From positions 1 to 5,812 of the forward strand of contig JAQUUB010000186.1 of NCBI GenBank assembly GCA_028694115.1: DNA of 5,812 bases, in the 5' to 3' direction. The notes beneath the pieces are model-generated. The model saw nothing but the letters and a program-made list of their open reading frames with translations. It had not been told where the DNA came from and made no database searches. A program made the position numbers and the translations under genes. Source of the stretch: Lachnospiraceae bacterium. GTDB lineage: Bacteria; Bacillota_A; Clostridia; Lachnospirales; Lachnospiraceae. Below are positions 182-5,708 of this stretch, piece after piece; the stretch's first letter is position 1, and every line of letters starts with the position of its first letter.

Positions 182-571
182 TTAACTAACTGGAACTGTA
201 TATTGTTCCATGATTACGGTTCTCTTTACAGATACCTGACCTTCTGTTCCAATTGGATGCTTATATTTCTCTATGACTTCTACTGATAAGAGTCCTTTTT
301 GATAGTCAACATCTAATACATTGACCTTTGTGCTACAGTCAGAATTGATCTGCACCAATAAGGCTTCCATAAAATCTGCAATGAACTCATCATTACTGCC
401 AGCGGAATACGTCTTACTATCAAACTGGTTCTCCACGGTATCCTGTAAGGCACTGTCTACTGCACGATTTAACTCGTTCTGTCTCATATTCGTTCCACAC
501 AGGGTCATTACAATAACAATCGATATCATCGCACAGATGGTAATTCCAAAGCCTAAAAACACATTCTTCAT
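182..571 (-). CDS. 129-aa pseudopilin-like membrane-anchored protein
   Basis: It starts MKNVFLGFGITICAMISIVI, a looser form of the MK-x-hydrophobic-F-x-x-[FY]-G pattern, with one membrane helix to about residue 25. It is followed by a helical stretch (NELNRAVDSALQDTVE, 32-47) and a mixed alpha/beta C-terminal domain (VNVLDVDYQKGLLSVEVIEKY). The layout of helix, ELNRAVDSA-type heptad region and small domain resembles TadE/TadF pseudopilins and is reminiscent of the DUF4320-like protein upstream. AGGAGG lies 8 bases before ATG, within the end of the 178-aa gene. Its TAA leads into the SD of the next gene (TAAGGAG). Function inferred from context. Confidence 0.7.
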   Translation of the reverse strand: MKNVFLGFGITICAMISIVIVMTLCGTNMRQNELNRAVDSALQDTVENQFDSKTYSAGSNDEFIADFMEALLVQINSDCSTKVNVLDVDYQKGLLSVEVIEKYKHPIGTEGQVSVKRTVIMEQYTVPVS

Positions 572-573
572 CC

Positions 574-1110
574 CTAGTTCCTCCTCTCGTCCACAGCAAT
601 CGGAATCTTCCAGACACTGGTCAGATTTTCTCTGTCCCTGATCTGGAAATAGACCACATACACCCCTGCATTAGGAAAACGGATACTTCCATCCGTAGAG
701 GAATAGGCACTCATAACACTTGTTCCATCGGCTCTTCTGATATCTAACACTTTACCAAACATGATATTTGTAAACAACTTTGCAACAATGACCTTATCCA
801 TTGGATAAATCGTTCCTTCCATATCCTTCGCATAATACCTGGAAAGAAAACTGGTACTATCCAAAGCAAAGAATCTACCATAAGATGCTGTGTATGCTGC
901 AACTGGTTTTGACCTGTTATGCCAGGTGACTACAGAATCAAAGTCATGATAAGAAGTAAAATCTATTTCTTCTTTTTCCACTGTCACCCCTGCAATCTTT
1001 AATATTCCTGTTTTGCCTGATACCGAAATTCCAAATAATACCCCAAGTATCAAGACAGCTGTAACAATAGCAATGATTGCAGTTCCAAACTCATGGAATA
1101 TTTCTTTCAT
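574..1110 (-). CDS. 178-aa membrane-anchored exported protein, probable minor pilin with beta-rich domain
   Basis: The N-terminus MKEIFHEFGTAIIAIVTAVL again carries the pilin-like motif, with a membrane helix to about residue 29. The remaining 150 residues are mostly beta-type and lack cysteines. Near the end, FPNAGVYVVYFQIRDRENLTSVWKIPIAV alternates hydrophobic and polar residues like the last strands of an Ig-like or fibronectin-like domain (cited here only as residues 145-173). It is probably a larger minor pilin, perhaps at the filament tip. It starts right at the stop of the 50-aa gene with an SD inside that gene. Near its end the codons RR (AGGAGG) serve as the SD of the next gene. No named family recognised. 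Confidence 0.72.
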   Translation of the reverse strand: MKEIFHEFGTAIIAIVTAVLILGVLFGISVSGKTGILKIAGVTVEKEEIDFTSYHDFDSVVTWHNRSKPVAAYTASYGRFFALDSTSFLSRYYAKDMEGTIYPMDKVIVAKLFTNIMFGKVLDIRRADGTSVMSAYSSTDGSIRFPNAGVYVVYFQIRDRENLTSVWKIPIAVDERRN

Positions 1111-1263
1111 CTAAGCACCACCTCCTAACACACTGGTAATGAAAAGATGAATCAGCGTTGTCATAGGCGTACCGAGAAAGAAATATGCCAATATTCCAAG
1201 AAAGAGTCCACCACTAATTGCTTCAACGACAAACTCTCCATACTCTTCAAAAATCTCCTTCAT
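1111..1263 (-). CDS. 50-aa leaderless pilin-like membrane protein
   Basis: It encodes 50 residues opening MKEIFEEYGEFVVEAISGG, then LFLGILAYFFLGT and a second hydrophobic stretch (TLIHLFITSVL), ending GGGA. The N-terminus is nearly the same as in the 56-aa pilins (MKEIFEQYG), but it has two hydrophobic segments instead of a helix plus polar tail. GAGGAGG lies 6 bases before ATG. The codons for LGG near its end form the SD (TTAGGAGGTGG) of the next gene, and its TAG directly abuts the next ATG, so the two are tightly coupled. Probably a minor pilin-like or membrane-platform peptide of the same machine; the exact role is unknown. Confidence 0.7.
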   Translation of the reverse strand: MKEIFEEYGEFVVEAISGGLFLGILAYFFLGTPMTTLIHLFITSVLGGGA

Positions 1264-1273
1264 TCAATCCTCC

Positions 1274-1378
1274 TCAACTGCTGATTACCCTTAAAAAGCC
1301 AATCAGTATGGCTGCCATTCCACTTCCAGCAATGGCATAAATAATACCACTTCCAAATTGTTCTATAATCAACTTCAT
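1274..1378 (-). CDS. 34-aa leaderless pilin-like membrane peptide
   Basis: A short frame with a strong SD (TAGGAGG, then ATTTT before ATG, with the TAG ending the DUF4320-like gene). It encodes 34 residues opening MKLIIEQFGSGIIYAIAG and then hydrophobic to near the end. The start matches the MK-x-I-x-E-Q-[FY]-G-S pattern of the 56-aa pilins, but the protein is little more than the membrane helix. It could be a minor pilin, a capping or regulatory subunit, or a stripped-down relic kept under coupling. Its TGA begins the next SD (TGAGGAGG). Spacing, motif and SD make a real gene likely. Confidence 0.68.
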   Translation of the reverse strand: MKLIIEQFGSGIIYAIAGSGMAAILIGFLRVISS

Positions 1379-1387
1379 AAAATCCTC

Positions 1388-1729
1388 CTATCTTGCAAAT
1401 GCCCGAATCTGCTGGGTGCTGATGACTCCCAAAAAGTCCACATGATAGTTGTATCTCAGAATCACTTCCATCAATGTTGGTTTTCCATCTTCATCTTTTA
1501 CAATACTGCTCTCGTCAATAAAAAGCTCATAGCCTGCATTGGCTGCCTGCGTCTTGCACGCATTGATCACACTTGGTGCAAAATTAGAATCCTCGATTTC
1601 TGCTATTACAGAAGCATGAAAGTCCCTCGCATTGTTTGCATCTATACAGGCTGACATAACTCCAGCCATCGTAAATACAGATAACAGAAGGATAAAAATT
1701 CCCACATAAGTCTTAATTGTTGTGCTCAT
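1388..1729 (-). CDS. DUF4320-like pseudopilin (TadE-like)
   Basis: A 113-aa protein with one N-terminal membrane helix (YVGIFILLLSVFTMAGVM, 8-25) and an exported C-terminal domain. Features such as SVINACKTQA, the repeated 'EVILRYNYHV' strand and the ending QQIRAFAR resemble DUF4320 proteins found beside CpaF-type ATPases in Clostridia (recognised from memory, no search). The design resembles TadE/F-type pseudopilins, minor subunits that prime or regulate filament assembly. It has no prepilin leader either, starting MSTTIKTY. GGAGGG lies 6 bases before ATG and overlaps the TAG of the platform gene. Its own TAG is built into the SD of the following 34-codon gene. Confidence 0.75.
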   Translation of the reverse strand: MSTTIKTYVGIFILLLSVFTMAGVMSACIDANNARDFHASVIAEIEDSNFAPSVINACKTQAANAGYELFIDESSIVKDEDGKPTLMEVILRYNYHVDFLGVISTQQIRAFAR

Positions 1730-1740
1730 TCTTTTCCCTC

Positions 1741-3243
1741 CTACATTCCAAACGTCAAGTTCTGAAGGAATACCACCAAAAGTAGGGCCATATCTACCAT
1801 CAACTTAAAAGAAGCAAGTAGTGACGGTAACAGAATATAGATCTTCATCCCTGCAATCTTATCTTCCTGTGTCAACTTCTCTGCCTTATCCATCATGGCA
1901 TTATTGCGGTCAATGAGTTCCTCTACCTGCTTTGTGACATCCCCTGCATTTCCACTGGATAATGCATAAAGCATTTTCATAGCGGACTGCACATCTGGGT
2001 TTCGATAATCCTTTAAAAACCTGTGATATGGTTCAATCGCATTTGGATCATCTTCTAAGTCATAAATCAACTCATCTAGTGCATGAATTAAAACATCCGG
2101 GGCACTGTCCATGGACTTACGGATTGCCATCTGTACATTATCAGTCTGTATCAGTAATGCTACCTCCATCAGCCAGTTAGGGAACTGCTTTTCAATCTCC
2201 CTTGCTACCTTTTTCTTGGCAAGATTGTGACCGACCTTATGCTGATTTAAGAAAAACAGTACCACTACAATCCCAGCTACCAGAACAGCAATGTTTTGAA
2301 AATACACAAATGCACCGATAAAAAGGATTGCTGGAATAACCGCCATCTTCTGACTGCTTTTGGCTTCCTTAGCTTCATCATAATCCCTTACCTGAAGATA
2401 TTTTCGATCCATTCCTGAACTGTCCGTTTCCTTCTCAATCCAGCTTCTACACAACTTCTTATCTGCCTTTACATAGATGAGCATACAGATACCAATCAAT
2501 ACCACCGCTGATATCTGGCATAAAGGAATCGCACTAATATCCAAATCTCCTCCTAACAGATAAAGAGGCAGAATACAAATCAACAACGTTGCTACCAATG
2601 CAATCATGATATTTCGTTTTACAATTTGAAATTCCTTTTGCAGATTGATAATTCGCTCTGCCCACATGGCTCTGTTCTTAGAAAGCAATGCAATACTGCC
2701 GCCTGCATCACCACCACGTCTCTGAGCACCCATTACAAAGGAATGAACGGCATCGACTCTTTCACAATGAAAGAACTCGCTAATCATCACCAGTGCTTCC
2801 TCCTCTGGATCTTCGCTATCAGTGGCATACTGAATATGTTCGATTGCCTGAACCAGTATCTCATGAAACTCTCCTTCATCAAAAATAGTGGCCGTCTCCG
2901 TCAATGCATTCAGTATCGTTTTGTTTCTCTTAAAGGAATACAAGAACTGTTCCATATAATTATTTGCCATAGAAAACATGGTCGTGTGATACTTCCCTTT
3001 CATGGTCTGAATCAGAACCAGTGGTGAGAACACCACCCCAATGATTCCGATTGACGCAATATAAGGTAACTGCAACTTATACAACAGTCCAAAGATAGCT
3101 GCAAGAAGCACAATCATTCCATAGGATATCATTGCTTTCTTAGGTGTAAACTCATATCCATACCTTGCAAGCTCCTGTGTCAGATTCTTATATCGCAAAA
3201 ATCTGAGAGAACTTTTTTTCTTCTTTCCACGTTCTTTCTTCAA
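1741..3243 (-). CDS. Tad pilus platform protein, TadB-TadC-like fusion (T2SSF-type)
   Basis: A 500-aa integral membrane protein that would form the inner platform on which the ATPase acts. After a very basic N-terminus (KKERGKKKK) come membrane segments at about 39-56 and 60-80, a cytoplasmic part at about 85-210 containing MEQFLYSFKRNKTILNAL, segments at 211-231 and 238-258, a charged linker, segments at 298-315 and 317-333, a second cytoplasmic part at 345-462 containing FPNWLMEVALLIQTDNVQMA, and a hydrophobic C-terminus (465-496). Two copies of a 'membrane pair, T2SSF-like domain, membrane' unit suggest that TadB and TadC, usually separate proteins of about 300 aa, are joined here. It starts with TTG overlapping the ATPase stop by 4 bases, so the two are coupled. 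Its TAG stop is part of the next SD (TAGGAGGG). The family call is solid; the fusion reading is inference. Confidence 0.82.
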   Translation of the reverse strand: MKKERGKKKKSSLRFLRYKNLTQELARYGYEFTPKKAMISYGMIVLLAAIFGLLYKLQLPYIASIGIIGVVFSPLVLIQTMKGKYHTTMFSMANNYMEQFLYSFKRNKTILNALTETATIFDEGEFHEILVQAIEHIQYATDSEDPEEEALVMISEFFHCERVDAVHSFVMGAQRRGGDAGGSIALLSKNRAMWAERIINLQKEFQIVKRNIMIALVATLLICILPLYLLGGDLDISAIPLCQISAVVLIGICMLIYVKADKKLCRSWIEKETDSSGMDRKYLQVRDYDEAKEAKSSQKMAVIPAILFIGAFVYFQNIAVLVAGIVVVLFFLNQHKVGHNLAKKKVAREIEKQFPNWLMEVALLIQTDNVQMAIRKSMDSAPDVLIHALDELIYDLEDDPNAIEPYHRFLKDYRNPDVQSAMKMLYALSSGNAGDVTKQVEELIDRNNAMMDKAEKLTQEDKIAGMKIYILLPSLLASFKLMVDMALLLVVFLQNLTFGM

Positions 3244-4289
3244 TCCTCACTTCCTCCTTCCCTTGAAAACGGTGTAATGCCCATTCGGTCAAATTTCTCA
3301 AGAACTGGTTCTGGAAGACACCTCTCTACCAGTTCTCCATTTAATACCACAGGAAACGTAATATTGCATCCGTCCTTTCGATAAAAGAAGCAAATCTGAT
3401 CAATGTATCTTCTGATTTTGCCATCTTCCATCTGTTTCTTACGGATTAAAATACCTACATCAATGAACATGAAAATATCATTCTCCATTCGATCTGCATC
3501 GGTTCGGCTTGCCAACATATTTAAAATACGATCTGGTATCTTTCTTACATCATCCGTATGAATCGTGGTGAATCCGCGAATTCCTGTAGATAAGCTCTCA
3601 AGCAGATATTTTACTTCCACAGAACGAGCTTCTGATAGCATAAGCCACTTTGGATTTTGTCTAAGACTTGTCTTAATCGCTTTTGTATAGCTGAACCCAT
3701 CCGATACCATCAATTCCACACAATCCTTCTCTGGATTGATTTCCCTGTAATGAAGCTCTGGCGTATCTTCAATGGTAATGACTCTTTCGTTTGCAGGGAT
3801 ATACTGTGAAAAGAACTTAATTCCTTCCGTCTTTCCCACACCTGGTTCCCCACAGAATACAAAGTTCATACGTGCTTTCACGCAATTTGTCAAAAGCTCT
3901 AAAATTTCTTTGGTACAATATCCATCTGCAATCATACTATCTCTTGTCATACGAACAGTCGGAAGGGTCTTTCTAATACAAACCGACCTTCCTGAAATTG
4001 CTGAGGACTCATGGACAATACTGATGCGTAGGGTATCCGTATCTGCCTCTAACAGATTCTCCACCTTGTTAAAAGGCTTACTTACGTTATTGGCAATATA
4101 ATGGCTGAACTTCTCAATAAATTCCTTCGAAACGCTATGCTCCTCCACTTTTTTTCGTTCATTTGCTGTATTGGTAATCCATAAATCCGTACCATTAAAG
4201 TCAATATCCGTGATTTCATCATCCTCTACATATGACCATAAGGGTCCAAAATGTGCGGGAACAAGCTCCCACTTTGTACTTCGTTCCAT
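3240..4289 (-). CDS. CpaF/TadA-family type II/IV secretion ATPase
   Basis: A 349-aa ATPase that would drive pilus assembly as a cytoplasmic hexamer at the membrane. Visible motifs: Walker A GEPGVGKT (147-154), Asp box IEDTPEL (173-179), a Walker B region WLMLSEARS with Glu at about 220, and the His box STGIRGFTTIHTDD (His about 244). These are in the right order and spacing for the PulE/VirB11/CpaF superfamily. The Walker B region departs from the usual GEVRG: the glycine before Glu is Ser and the final glycine is also Ser. The protein is shorter than many CpaF proteins, with only a small N-terminal domain. I start it at the ATG at 4287-4289, preceded by AAAGGAG; an upstream TTG at 4302-4304 would add five residues but overlaps that SD. 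Its TGA overlaps the next start (TTGA). VirB11 is the alternative, but TadB/C-like and pilin neighbours favour a Tad role. Confidence 0.88.
   Translation of the reverse strand: MERSTKWELVPAHFGPLWSYVEDDEITDIDFNGTDLWITNTANERKKVEEHSVSKEFIEKFSHYIANNVSKPFNKVENLLEADTDTLRISIVHESSAISGRSVCIRKTLPTVRMTRDSMIADGYCTKEILELLTNCVKARMNFVFCGEPGVGKTEGIKFFSQYIPANERVITIEDTPELHYREINPEKDCVELMVSDGFSYTKAIKTSLRQNPKWLMLSEARSVEVKYLLESLSTGIRGFTTIHTDDVRKIPDRILNMLASRTDADRMENDIFMFIDVGILIRKKQMEDGKIRRYIDQICFFYRKDGCNITFPVVLNGELVERCLPEPVLEKFDRMGITPFSREGGSED
3253..3259 (-). promoter_or_regulatory. SD that sets a TTG start for the TadB/C-like gene
   Basis: AAGGAGG on the minus strand lies 9 bases before the TTG at 3241-3243, inside the last codons of the ATPase gene. 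The first in-frame ATG comes only at codon 38, inside the first membrane segment, so TTG is the credible start. Confidence 0.65.
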
Positions 4290-4302
4290 ATAACTCCTTT
4301 CC

Positions 4303-4325
4303 AAGAGGGGAGCCTGTCCCCTCTT
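4303..4325 (-). promoter_or_regulatory. Intergenic hairpin between pilin and ATPase genes
   Basis: On the minus strand AAGAGGGGA, loop CAGGC, TCCCCTCTT is a perfect 9-bp GC-rich stem, ending 2 bases before the AAAGGAG of the ATPase gene. It has no T-run, so it is a poor intrinsic terminator. A stable hairpin here would more likely protect the 3' end of the pilin mRNA or limit ATPase translation, giving many pilins per motor. Role inferred. Confidence 0.5.
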
Positions 4326-4357
4326 TCTATCATTCTGTCTTTACCTAATCCCAACCA

Positions 4358-4528
4358 TTAACCTGTAATGGTTCCAGCTGCTCTGTTAAAGAAGCTGTCG
4401 ATTAGGTTCTTGAAGGAATTTGCTACTACACCATCTGTTGCCAAAAGCATTACAATAATTGCTACCAATGCGCTGATTGCTACTGCTGCAATAATTACTG
4501 AGCCATACTGTTCAAAAATCTCTTTCAT
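4358..4528 (-). CDS. 56-aa Flp-like leaderless major pilin, copy 2 (identical protein)
   Basis: It encodes exactly the same 56 residues as the copy at 4586-4756, but the DNA differs at 13 of 171 positions, all third codon positions and all synonymous. The 5' untranslated sequence is also related, so the duplication carried its upstream region. The SD equivalent here is GAGAT rather than GAGGT, which suggests weaker initiation than copy 1. It is followed by a strong hairpin and then the ATPase gene. Role as for copy 1: the probable structural subunit of the filament, anchored in the membrane by its N-terminal helix before assembly. Confidence 0.7.
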   Translation of the reverse strand: MKEIFEQYGSVIIAAVAISALVAIIVMLLATDGVVANSFKNLIDSFFNRAAGTITG

Positions 4529-4585
4529 TCGATTTATCTCATTCTTTCTTATAATTGTTTTTATTGGTTTCTTTACTACAAATGA

Positions 4586-4756
4586 TTAGCCTGTGATGGT
4601 ACCAGCTGCTCTGTTGAAGAAACTGTCGATCAGGTTCTTGAAGGAATTTGCTACTACTCCATCTGTTGCTAAAAGCATTACGATAATTGCTACTAATGCA
4701 CTGATTGCTACCGCTGCAATAATTACTGATCCATACTGTTCAAAAATCTCTTTCAT
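4586..4756 (-). CDS. 56-aa Flp-like leaderless major pilin, copy 1
   Basis: This 56-aa protein begins MKEIFEQYGSVIIAAVAISA, continues as one hydrophobic helix to about residue 30, and has a short polar tail (TDGVVANSFKNLIDSFFNRA) ending in AGTITG. The E-x-Y-G-x-hydrophobic-AA pattern resembles the mature N-terminus of Tad/Flp pilins (EYG-LIAA type). However, no leader or cleavage glycine precedes it, so it would be used without prepilin processing. It is first in the pilus block, has GAGGT 7 bases before ATG, and sits upstream of the secretion ATPase, all consistent with the main filament subunit. The protein is identical to that encoded by the next gene. An alternative is a small membrane peptide of a conjugation apparatus. 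Confidence 0.7.
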   Translation of the reverse strand: MKEIFEQYGSVIIAAVAISALVAIIVMLLATDGVVANSFKNLIDSFFNRAAGTITG

Positions 4757-4800
4757 TTGATTTACCTCATTCTTCTTTTATTATTTGTAATTGTTTATAT

Positions 4801-4827
4801 TAAAATAGCGGCTCCTTATAGCCGCTA
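4801..4827 (-). terminator. Rho-independent terminator-like hairpin upstream of the pilin genes
   Basis: On the minus strand TAGCGGCT, loop ATAAGG, AGCCGCTA forms a perfect 8-bp stem (4827-4820 with 4813-4806) followed directly by TTTTAATAT. It lies about 50 bases before the first pilin start. It would separate the partition and small-ORF transcript from the pilus transcript, or act as a leaky attenuator. The T-run is only four bases before an AA, so termination may be partial. I see no convincing -35/-10 pair after it. Confidence 0.6.
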
Positions 4828-4843
4828 ATACCTACCCAATCCA

Positions 4844-4882
4844 GTGGATAGGCAATACTGTTCTCCGTTACTACCTATCCAC
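4844..4882 (-). promoter_or_regulatory. Leader RNA inverted repeat with alternative pairing partner
   Basis: On the minus strand GTGGATAGG (4882-4874) pairs perfectly with CCTATCCAC (4852-4844) across a 21-base loop. The same CCTATCC can instead pair with GGGTAGG (4837-4831), seven pairs including one G-U. The two pairings exclude each other, which is the layout of an attenuator or riboregulator. The terminator-like hairpin begins 3 bases after GGGTAGG. The structure overlaps the read-on part of the 17-codon frame. That it is regulatory is inference. Confidence 0.35.
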
Positions 4883-4896
4883 ATGACTGTGTGAAA

Positions 4897-4950
4897 TTAT
4901 TCAGTTTTGTACACGGAGACAGTAGATGGTTTGTCCCGTATATAATGCAT
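4897..4950 (-). CDS. 17-aa ORF, probable leader peptide or first part of a broken 41-codon gene
   Basis: AAAGGAG lies 7 bases before an ATG that opens MHYIRDKPSTVSVYKTE and then a TAA. The codon before the ATG is TAG, so the frame truly begins here. After the TAA the same frame stays open for 23 more sense codons (FHTVMWIGSNGEQYCLSTG and so on) and stops with TAG at 4825-4827 inside the terminator-like stem. The residues after the stop look as protein-like as those before it. This suggests either a nonsense mutation in a 41-codon gene or a leader peptide that overlaps regulatory RNA structure. No family recognised. Confidence 0.4.
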   Translation of the reverse strand: MHYIRDKPSTVSVYKTE

Positions 4951-4965
4951 CTAACTCTCCTTTGC

Positions 4966-5046
4966 TTAAACTGCCATATTTCTTAATTGAAAGAAATACT
5001 TCATCAATCTACGGTTTTCTCTGTATGCTTTATATCCTGCAGCCAT
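4966..5046 (-). CDS. 26-aa small basic ORF with strong SD
   Basis: ATG is preceded by AAAGGAGG at a spacing of 8 bases, one of the best SD sequences in the window. It encodes 26 residues starting MAAGYKAYRENRRLMKYF, rich in R, K and Y and likely helical, and ends at TAA just before the next SD (AAAGGAG). No family recognised. It could be a genuine small protein, a leader peptide controlling the pilus genes, or the remnant of a longer gene. The well-placed SD is the main support; there is no conservation evidence. Confidence 0.45.
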   Translation of the reverse strand: MAAGYKAYRENRRLMKYFFQLRNMAV

Positions 5047-5061
5047 ACAATCAACCTCCTT

Positions 5062-5235
5062 TCATGGTGCTCCTACTCTTACGAACGCAAGGAATACTCT
5101 GAGAACAAGTCCAAACAATAGAAGTATTACCTTTGCTAATTCCAACAGCAATCTTAATAAATTCAATATAAACCACATGATTCCTTTTAGAAATCCAAGC
5201 ATTCCATACCCTATTGTTGAAAAAACTCTTCTCAT
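5062..5235 (-). CDS. 57-aa small hydrophobic membrane peptide
   Basis: The frame starts with an ATG that shares bases with the TGA of the ParR-like gene (ATGA), with GGAGG about 10 bases upstream inside that gene, so translational coupling is likely. The peptide begins MRRVFSTIGYGMLGFLKG and is then almost entirely hydrophobic (runs such as WFILNLLRLLLEL and VILLLFGLVLRVFLAFV) with regularly spaced R and K. This suggests one or two membrane-embedded or strongly amphipathic helices with positive charges. A competing minus-strand frame over 5051-5254 has no membrane or domain pattern, and its start lies inside the upstream gene without a good SD, so I prefer this one. No family recognised. Its place between partition and pilus genes does not settle its role. 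Confidence 0.62.
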   Translation of the reverse strand: MRRVFSTIGYGMLGFLKGIMWFILNLLRLLLELAKVILLLFGLVLRVFLAFVRVGAP

Positions 5236-5708
5236 TCCCCAATTCCTCCATCATCTTCCATCCAACTACTCGCCAGGTCAGCCAGCTGATCTATTGTTTG
5301 TTCATCTTGCATATGATTCTCTTCATCAACTCTTCTTTCCTTACCCTGCGGAACCGGATAATATCCTTTCGGTACTATCTGTTGCATTCCAGCTACAACA
5401 CCACCAAGTAATCGAATTACTTCATTCCTTGCTTCAGTAATTACACTGGCATGCAACTCCTCTTTAATCTCCTCTATATCATCTCTAGTCACATATTCAT
5501 TCGATTTCATTTTATCAAGCTCTACCAGATTGGCTTTTCCAACATTATCAACATAGAACTCTAATGCAGCTATAAAAAGCTGGTTTTGCGTTTTGTTCAT
5601 TTCCTGATTCAGATGCTTTAATATCTTATGAATTTCCAAATGTCTAGGATTCTTTAGATTAAGCCTAAGACTATAATGAACAATACTATCACGATCTGCT
5701 TTTGCCAT
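5232..5708 (-). CDS. ParR-like ribbon-helix-helix DNA-binding protein (plasmid partition adaptor)
   Basis: This 158-aa protein starts at an ATG preceded by AGAGGTGAG. Residues 9-55 fit a ribbon-helix-helix fold: a short strand (VHYSLRLNL, residues 10-18), a helix rich in K, H and L, a turn near NKTQNQ, and a second helix (LFIAALEFYV). Residues 72-112 are predicted helical (acidic, then EVIRLLGGVVAGM), and the C-terminus from about 128 is strongly acidic. In ParM-type systems, ParR binds centromere repeats through its N-terminal ribbon-helix-helix and contacts ParM filaments through its C-terminal tail; the layout here matches that. It lies directly after the ParM-like gene and its TGA overlaps the next start (ATGA). 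No centromere repeats are recognisable nearby; they would be expected upstream of parM, outside the window. An alternative is an autoregulatory repressor of the pilus operon. Moderately sure. Confidence 0.66.
   Translation of the reverse strand: MAKADRDSIVHYSLRLNLKNPRHLEIHKILKHLNQEMNKTQNQLFIAALEFYVDNVGKANLVELDKMKSNEYVTRDDIEEIKEELHASVITEARNEVIRLLGGVVAGMQQIVPKGYYPVPQGKERRVDEENHMQDEQTIDQLADLASSWMEDDGGIGE

Follow-up and report, generated by a model that had tools for sequence, protein, structure and literature searches.

Removal of the leader by a prepilin peptidase is described as required before assembly of type IV filaments (PMC10191384). Not every filament locus carries the peptidase gene: the MSH loci described by Denise et al. 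(2019, PMC6668835) are without a peptidase of their own and have one elsewhere in the genome, and according to the same source Tad systems themselves may keep tadV apart, so that the absence of a nearby tadV is not by itself excluding. In Gram-positive bacteria, Imam et al. (2011, PMC3244431) described tad-like clostridial loci, among them those of C. kluyveri, C. cellulolyticum, C. bolteae and C. sp. L2-50, with tad genes and no protein bearing an apparent prepilin signal motif. In the present study, we analyzed a stretch of 5,812 nucleotides from a Lachnospiraceae bacterium (contig JAQUUB010000186.1 of assembly GCA_028694115.1; hereafter, the window), which carries a compact, unannotated pilus-like machine of gut Lachnospiraceae. 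The machine may build filaments without the usual processing enzyme, because its subunits start with a shared nine-residue signal and not with a removable leader. That the filament is peptidase-free is the most interesting possibility left by the evidence, and we offer it as a reading and not as a result. Since a common gut lineage would have subunits without an ordinary leader, the rule of leader removal becomes testable; the system also brings to light a group of small genes (roughly 30-80 codons), left by annotation as hypothetical, both in gut bacteria and on elements moving between them.

The genes of the system, in the order in which they are read, are as follows (aa, amino acids).

4586..4756, minus strand: P1, first copy, 56 aa, MKEIFEQYG followed by a hydrophobic helix and a short C-terminal helix; candidate major pilin
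4358..4528, minus strand: P1, second copy, protein identical to the first
3240..4304, minus strand: secretion ATPase of the VirB11/CpaF/FlaI type, 354 aa
1741..3243, minus strand: membrane platform, 500 aa, apparently with two GspF/PilC-type cytoplasmic domains per chain
1388..1729, minus strand: P6, membrane-anchored, 113 aa, without leader (MSTTIKTYVG); perhaps related to P5
1274..1378, minus strand: P2, 34 aa, MKLIIEQFG and a helix only
1111..1263, minus strand: P3, 50 aa, MKEIFEEYG and a helix
574..1110, minus strand: P4, 178 aa, MKEIFHEFG, a helix and a C-terminal beta-sandwich (Ig/PKD-like)
182..571, minus strand: P5, membrane-anchored, 129 aa, with the looser start MKNVFLGFG; outside the range 574..4756 of the original prediction

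Both copies of P1, as well as P2, P3 and P4, begin with MK-x-h-h-x-(E/Q)-(Y/F)-G directly followed by a hydrophobic helix, with no start codon upstream, and the shared motif on which the original prediction was built is therefore real. The further proposal that one signal is reused on five or six subunits holds for at least four; P5 has only M-K-x(4)-G in common with them. Among 753 open reading frames of 30 aa or more selected from 43 loci, a total that takes in the pilus system's own genes, motif starts beyond the classed P1-P4 were found 12 times, all from this system (nine P5, two P1 and one P6). The co-occurrence of the motif on P1-P4 exceeds chance. A database search gave 658 relatives of P1, and in the best 120 of the 658, which were inspected, 112 begin at the motif methionine, the upstream stretches of the other eight are mostly unrelated-looking by eye, and Tyr8 is present in all 120.

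Loci and genomes are referred to below by L and G numbers. The first batch of subunits comprised 22, 22, 29 and 25 distinct sequences of P1, P2, P3 and P4, respectively, selected partly by a motif pattern requiring Y/F and then a small residue; five reading frames without the pattern were dropped (L003, cut by the contig end; L013; L024; and two of L035), and a position rule excluded others, such as P2 of L011. Residue 9 of these subunits is nearly always G, A or S. The second batch consisted of 21 P1 hand-picked from 20 later loci, in which residue 8 is Tyr in 14, Asn in four, and Phe, His and Glu in one each (the Glu from an offset start), and residue 9 is Gly in 16, Ser in three and Arg in L071. 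The P1 candidates of L030 and L035 are without the motif. P1 is doubled in the window and in L002, L004, L006, L010, L068 and L069. In L068 and L069, Asn replaces Tyr8, and the two tandem P1-like genes upstream of the ATPase are divergent, with RENG instead of EYG; thus, non-identical duplicates recur in distant lineages. In L005, of [Clostridium] fimetarium, the P1 copies (6739-6909 and 9772-9942) are separated by about 2.9 kb with three other reading frames, as if DNA had been inserted. Iterated hidden Markov models started from P1 collected P2, P3 and P4 together with secreted proteins, and were not used as proof of homology. Taken over the sequences compared, the subunit family appears broader and more constant than is visible from the window alone.

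The small genes do not look like annotation artefacts. All subunit genes of the window open at the motif methionine, with no earlier in-frame ATG, GTG or TTG, and purine-rich, ribosome-site-like stretches lie 5' of the starts of P1, P2, P4 and P5. An upstream in-frame start codon is likewise absent in 75 of 111 first-batch P1-P4 genes and in 13 of the 21 second-batch P1, and on these grounds we rejected wrongly placed start codons as a general explanation for the absent leader. The two P1 copies of the window differ at 13 of 171 bases, all of them synonymous third positions. Between the window and its relatives, changes in P1, P2 and P3 concentrate at third positions (for P1 against L008, 21 synonymous and two non-synonymous codons). 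P2 of L017 is less clear, with 11 synonymous and 11 non-synonymous codons against L018, and eight of each against L019.

The ATPase matches PF00437 with 67.4 bits (cut-off 24.9), and its nearest solved relatives are VirB11 (E 6.5e-15) and CpaF (E 1.4e-12), in 13 PDB matches that include FlaI, PilT and PilB; it is an assembly ATPase of the PilB/CpaF/VirB11 family. A platform of the GspF/PilC/TadB type, by which the type IV filament superfamily is recognized, is also present. The prediction made for the window protein supports, moderately, a single protein with two GspF-type domains; a Foldseek search with the whole model gave no match at E <= 0.001. The gene is single, of 423-538 aa where complete. 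In 33 loci recruited through the ATPase, several of which are contig fragments, P6 was present in 30 and relatives of P1-P4 across most, and in the 20 later loci relatives of P1-P6 again lie beside the ATPase and platform. The machine of filament type that had been predicted is thus borne out by both families and by the recurrence of P1-P6 as one cluster. By eye, there are two gene orders, P6-P2-P3-P4-P5 as in the window and one with P6 after P4 (L062, L065 and others); a P5-like gene stands upstream of the ATPase in L070, L071 and L076, and no P1 was found in L063. A protein bearing GTSANM near its start precedes P1 in L017 (9280-9816) and L029 (9212 onward), which we take to be reminiscent of a degenerate TadZ/ParA-type protein; that of L017 has no Pfam match at E <= 0.01.

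As for the other subunits, the predicted model of P4 has a continuous helix over residues 2-30 and then a beta-sandwich (pLDDT 76), whose best structural matches, none strong, are PKD, S-layer, filamin and adhesin Ig-like domains. P5 and P6 have 28 and 31 family members, respectively, including those of the window, and the profile match between the two is weak (E 1.6e-4, probability 50%). The suggested link to DUF4320 failed, as the 113-aa P6 has no match to it and one of 21 relatives matches at E 0.053. In many of the examined loci, P5 is followed by large secreted-looking proteins, with their own Sec signal peptides by eye; that of L006 (690 aa) carries a divergent InlB B-repeat match (PF18998).

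The system resembles Tad/Flp (type IVc) pili in its small pilins of about 55 aa, its CpaF-type ATPase, its GspF-type platform and the EYG-like residues in part of the family. However, P1-P4 are without a leader of the usual length and have no cleavable residue in the Flp register, four or more subunits have one common start, no TadV match lies near the locus, and the Flp_Fap matches of P1 are far below the cut-off. Furthermore, Tad has TadB and TadC, whereas one platform gene is present here and no second was noticed by eye. The system works like a Tad pilus; we do not class it among the Tad pili, since tests for the Flp-model, TadV and TadB/TadC features found none of them. MSH pilins are ordinary prepilins, whereas the subunits described here are without a normal leader. 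The coat protein of the filamentous phage Pf3 is a leaderless short helix that is inserted and then built into a filament with no removal step; however, phage assembly uses no T2SSE ATPase or GspF platform, and the comparison is an analogy only. The loci of Imam et al. were compared with the window system by description only, and leaderless subunits are not among the features described in the available portion of that paper (PMC3244431). In the open-access literature, in which most papers were covered by title and abstract only, no title or abstract opening was found to name such a leaderless pilus system of Lachnospiraceae.

The motif can be read in two registers, either as the EYG of a mature Flp pilin without leader or as a nine-residue leader ending at Gly9. 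In the Flp register, Glu7-Tyr8-Gly9 correspond to Glu5-Tyr6-Gly7, which leaves only Met-Lys ahead of the expected mature start. PF04964 (cut-off 32.2) places residue 7 at about the Glu+5 column, whose position was taken from L041 and is accurate within one, in four of ten tested second-batch P1 (16, 15.7, 13.8 and 10.3 bits); a fifth match, L068 with 14.5 bits, is in a different register. The likeness to mature Flp therefore has some support in these distant P1, all below the cut-off. On the other side, two P1 match PF16982 at 14.4 bits (cut-off 33.5), with Gly9 in the column that, in canonical pilins from the same genomes, holds the last residue ahead of the inferred cut; a MAFFT alignment also sets Gly9 there. 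The hydrophobic run after Gly9 is 21-22 residues in 18 of 22 P1; in canonical pilins it is 20 in four of six, the other two being broken by Asn at +1. The P1 of L068 matches PF16982 (9.5 bits) in another register, and neither model has a match at E <= 0.1 among the 21 rows of the P1 alignment A1. The supposition that Met sits at the cleavage site thus corresponds to one of the two registers. All Pfam matches of P1 are below cut-off, so that either register is possible.

Judged from the sequences, neither register seems to fit normal processing. In the leaderless register, residue 2 is mostly K, Q, D, R or E, and is Gly in none of the first batch and in two of the 21 second-batch P1. The Gly9 register has the form of a class III signal peptide, with nine residues ending mostly in Gly and then about 20 hydrophobic residues, and deviates at +1 and +5. 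After Gly9, Pro, Lys or Glu is common in some groups: +1 is Pro in 20 of the best 120 of the 658 database P1, and is charged in 12 of 29 P3 and eight of 25 P4. Glu+5 occurs in 12 of the 29 P3, one of the 25 P4 and no P1 or P2. NCBIfam gave no pilin match with either six second-batch P1 or four canonical pilins, and is thus uninformative either way. Overall, we consider it rather probable that the subunits are not cleaved.

Two findings weigh against this. One is that PF01478 matches were found in 19 of the 20 system genomes first examined and in all 47 further ones, i.e. in 66 of 67, the one without being a metagenome bin (G015, the source of L029). The other concerns leader-bearing homologues: none convincing was found among the sequences examined, except that the P1 candidate of the divergent locus L030 starts eight residues earlier, and these can be read as a leader. 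As for the vicinity of the locus, no TadV/CpaA/PilD-type peptidase match adjoins the platform in the 67 genomes, as had been anticipated; however, some platform contigs are a few kb long, and a peptidase beyond the contig end is possible there. By eye, the two share a contig in seven genomes, the nearest pair being about 95 kb apart (G013) and the others at least 380 kb, and in the remaining 60 they are on different contigs, or none was found (G015). The claim that the system needs no prepilin peptidase is not established, since nearly every genome encodes one elsewhere. Co-occurrence had no power as a test, since PF01478 is nearly universal in the family and was also present in 50 of 50 genomes sampled from the 341 without a platform match.

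From genomes with the system, eight regions around peptidase genes were retrieved, and six were scanned (L036-L041; L042 and L043 were left out). All six carry, at a locus separate from the system described here, a small pilin of canonical form, with a leader of 13-15 residues, G or A before the inferred cut, and Glu+5; the five that were scanned with PF16982 score 63-86 bits. These cells therefore do use the ordinary processing rule, and P1-P4 are without the 13-15 residue leader, the Glu+5 pattern and the full-scoring PF16982 match. In many genomes of the family, two PF01478 matches lie about 7-8 kb apart around the canonical Tad-type locus (for example, L036, L037, L039, L040 and L041), which flagellin-like genes adjoin in L036 and L037.

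The explanation we favour, on an evenly balanced judgement, is a compact type IV filament machine that acts like a Tad pilus and has unprocessed P1-P4. The VirB11/CpaF-type ATPase would drive the single platform with two GspF-type domains, which would raise small membrane-spanning subunits from the membrane into a fibre. The shaft is likely built of P1, and P2-P6 may be initiation, tip or anchoring subunits; P4 would display its beta-sandwich, and the large secreted-looking protein downstream is a likely tip adhesin or cargo. P1-P4 would enter the membrane N-in and retain the first nine residues, and this amphipathic stub, M-K-x-h-h-x-E-Y-G, would serve on the cytoplasmic side as a common recognition signal for the platform. 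Because nothing would be cut off, no new free amine would be buried in the fibre, and the usual partner, Glu+5, would be dispensable. On conjugative elements, the machine probably serves contact between donor and recipient or with surfaces.

One possible alternative, on the doubtful side, is that the first nine residues form a minimal class III leader, which a host peptidase of a Tad, type IV pilus or competence system removes in trans by cutting after Gly9, in which case the system described here would be a Tad relative with outsourced processing. The peptidases elsewhere in the genomes, the small residue 9, and the registers of PF16982, MAFFT and the hydrophobic run agree with it, as do the descriptions of leaders that end in Gly/Ala with Glu+5 frequent but not universal (PMC10191384) and of MSH loci, which may borrow a peptidase (PMC6668835). 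However, Pro or a charged residue after Gly9, the Arg9 and Ser9 of the second batch, and the lack of Glu+5 in P1 and P2 are difficult to reconcile with such a cut, and the Tyr8 of all 120 best database P1 is unlike a discarded leader. Unlikely, in our judgement, is a pseudopilus, in which the ATPase, platform and small subunits, with no long fibre, act as a piston or adaptor for the export or display of the large protein of secreted appearance encoded downstream; the frequency of such proteins after P5, the InlB B-repeat match and the several subunit types of very different sizes would suit it, whereas the apparent Sec signal peptides of those proteins and the doubling of P1, as might suit a shaft subunit, would not. 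We regard as very improbable that the VirB11-like ATPase powers the type IV secretion system of a conjugative element, with P1-P6 as its accessory proteins. The ATPase indeed scores higher against the VirB11 model (94.9 bits) than against the TadA model (82.2 bits), both below cut-off, and in L044 a relaxase, a coupling protein, a VirB4-type ATPase and an NlpC/P60 hydrolase lie downstream on the element. However, the platform is GspF-like, and the clusters of L015 and L016 stand between housekeeping-like genes, where inspection of about 21 kb by eye revealed no transfer gene, no model scan having been made.

Extended to its distribution, the reading of unprocessed subunits becomes that of a filament family, common in Lachnospiraceae and partly spread by conjugation, which assembles at least four subunit types without prepilin peptidase by means of the retained nine-residue stub; we hold this only tentatively, at slightly less than an even chance. 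Of 396 genomes sampled from the family to which G008 (Roseburia porci, the source of L016) belongs, 55 gave a platform match, and of 393 sampled from its class, four did; G008 is counted in both samples. The ATPases of the window clade are 84-96% identical in L001-L010; at the DNA level, the window shares 93.9% identity with L001 (4551 bases) and 91.8% with L002 (5166 bases). In a 20-row platform tree, this clade stands apart from the chromosomal clades, with 100/99 support for the three rows used, and it includes Clostridium tyrobutyricum, of another family. In L. phytofermentans KNHs2131, relaxase, coupling protein, VirB4-type ATPase and NlpC/P60 hydrolase genes lie downstream, and ParB- and actin-type genes upstream; L044, the stretch after L006, has the matches PF03432, PF02534 and PF19044, corresponding to relaxase, coupling protein and VirB4-type ATPase, and L046 and L050 have similar-looking transfer genes by eye. 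Close relatives of the window thus appear, from their gene content, to lie on conjugative elements. The gene set of such an element was found in one window relative (L044), and the relation of the window itself is read from relatives. At megablast sensitivity, the window DNA has no match among plasmid records, and a scan of viral_contigs with the ATPase found nothing.

The remaining genes of the window are the following.

5232..5708, minus strand: 158-aa protein, positioned like the partner of a ParM-like actin (partition genes of mobile elements), by eye from synteny with L002, L004, L006 and L007
5062..5235, minus strand: highly hydrophobic 57-aa protein, between the partition genes and P1
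3..170, minus strand: membrane protein, start only (about 265 aa in close relatives)

On the minus strand, the order is thus 158-aa protein, 57-aa protein, P1, P1, ATPase, platform, P6, P2, P3, P4, P5 and the start of the membrane protein. Pfam matches to actin-like and ParB proteins in L006 support the placement of the 158-aa protein. The counterpart of the 57-aa protein in L007 has 60 aa (9339-9521, by eye). In close relatives, the membrane protein of about 265 aa is followed by a large secreted-looking protein (4383-5180 and then 5193-7277 in L001; also L002 and L006).

In L002, L006 and L010, the left edge of the element lies just after an RNA-methyltransferase-like gene (461-479 aa, named by eye), at about 4.9-6.4 kb in each locus. 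The edge looks like an integration site shared by the three genomes. The genome of [Clostridium] fimetarium (G001) has three platform copies, two in the mobile clade of the window (L005 and L007; 86% and 83%) and a third at C23:178278-179771 with 36% identity. Two human-gut records named 'Bacteriophage sp.' carry the ATPase, L034 (MT837507) and L035 (MT835474); the former has housekeeping-like neighbours as in L015 and L016, by eye, and is probably bacterial chromosome.

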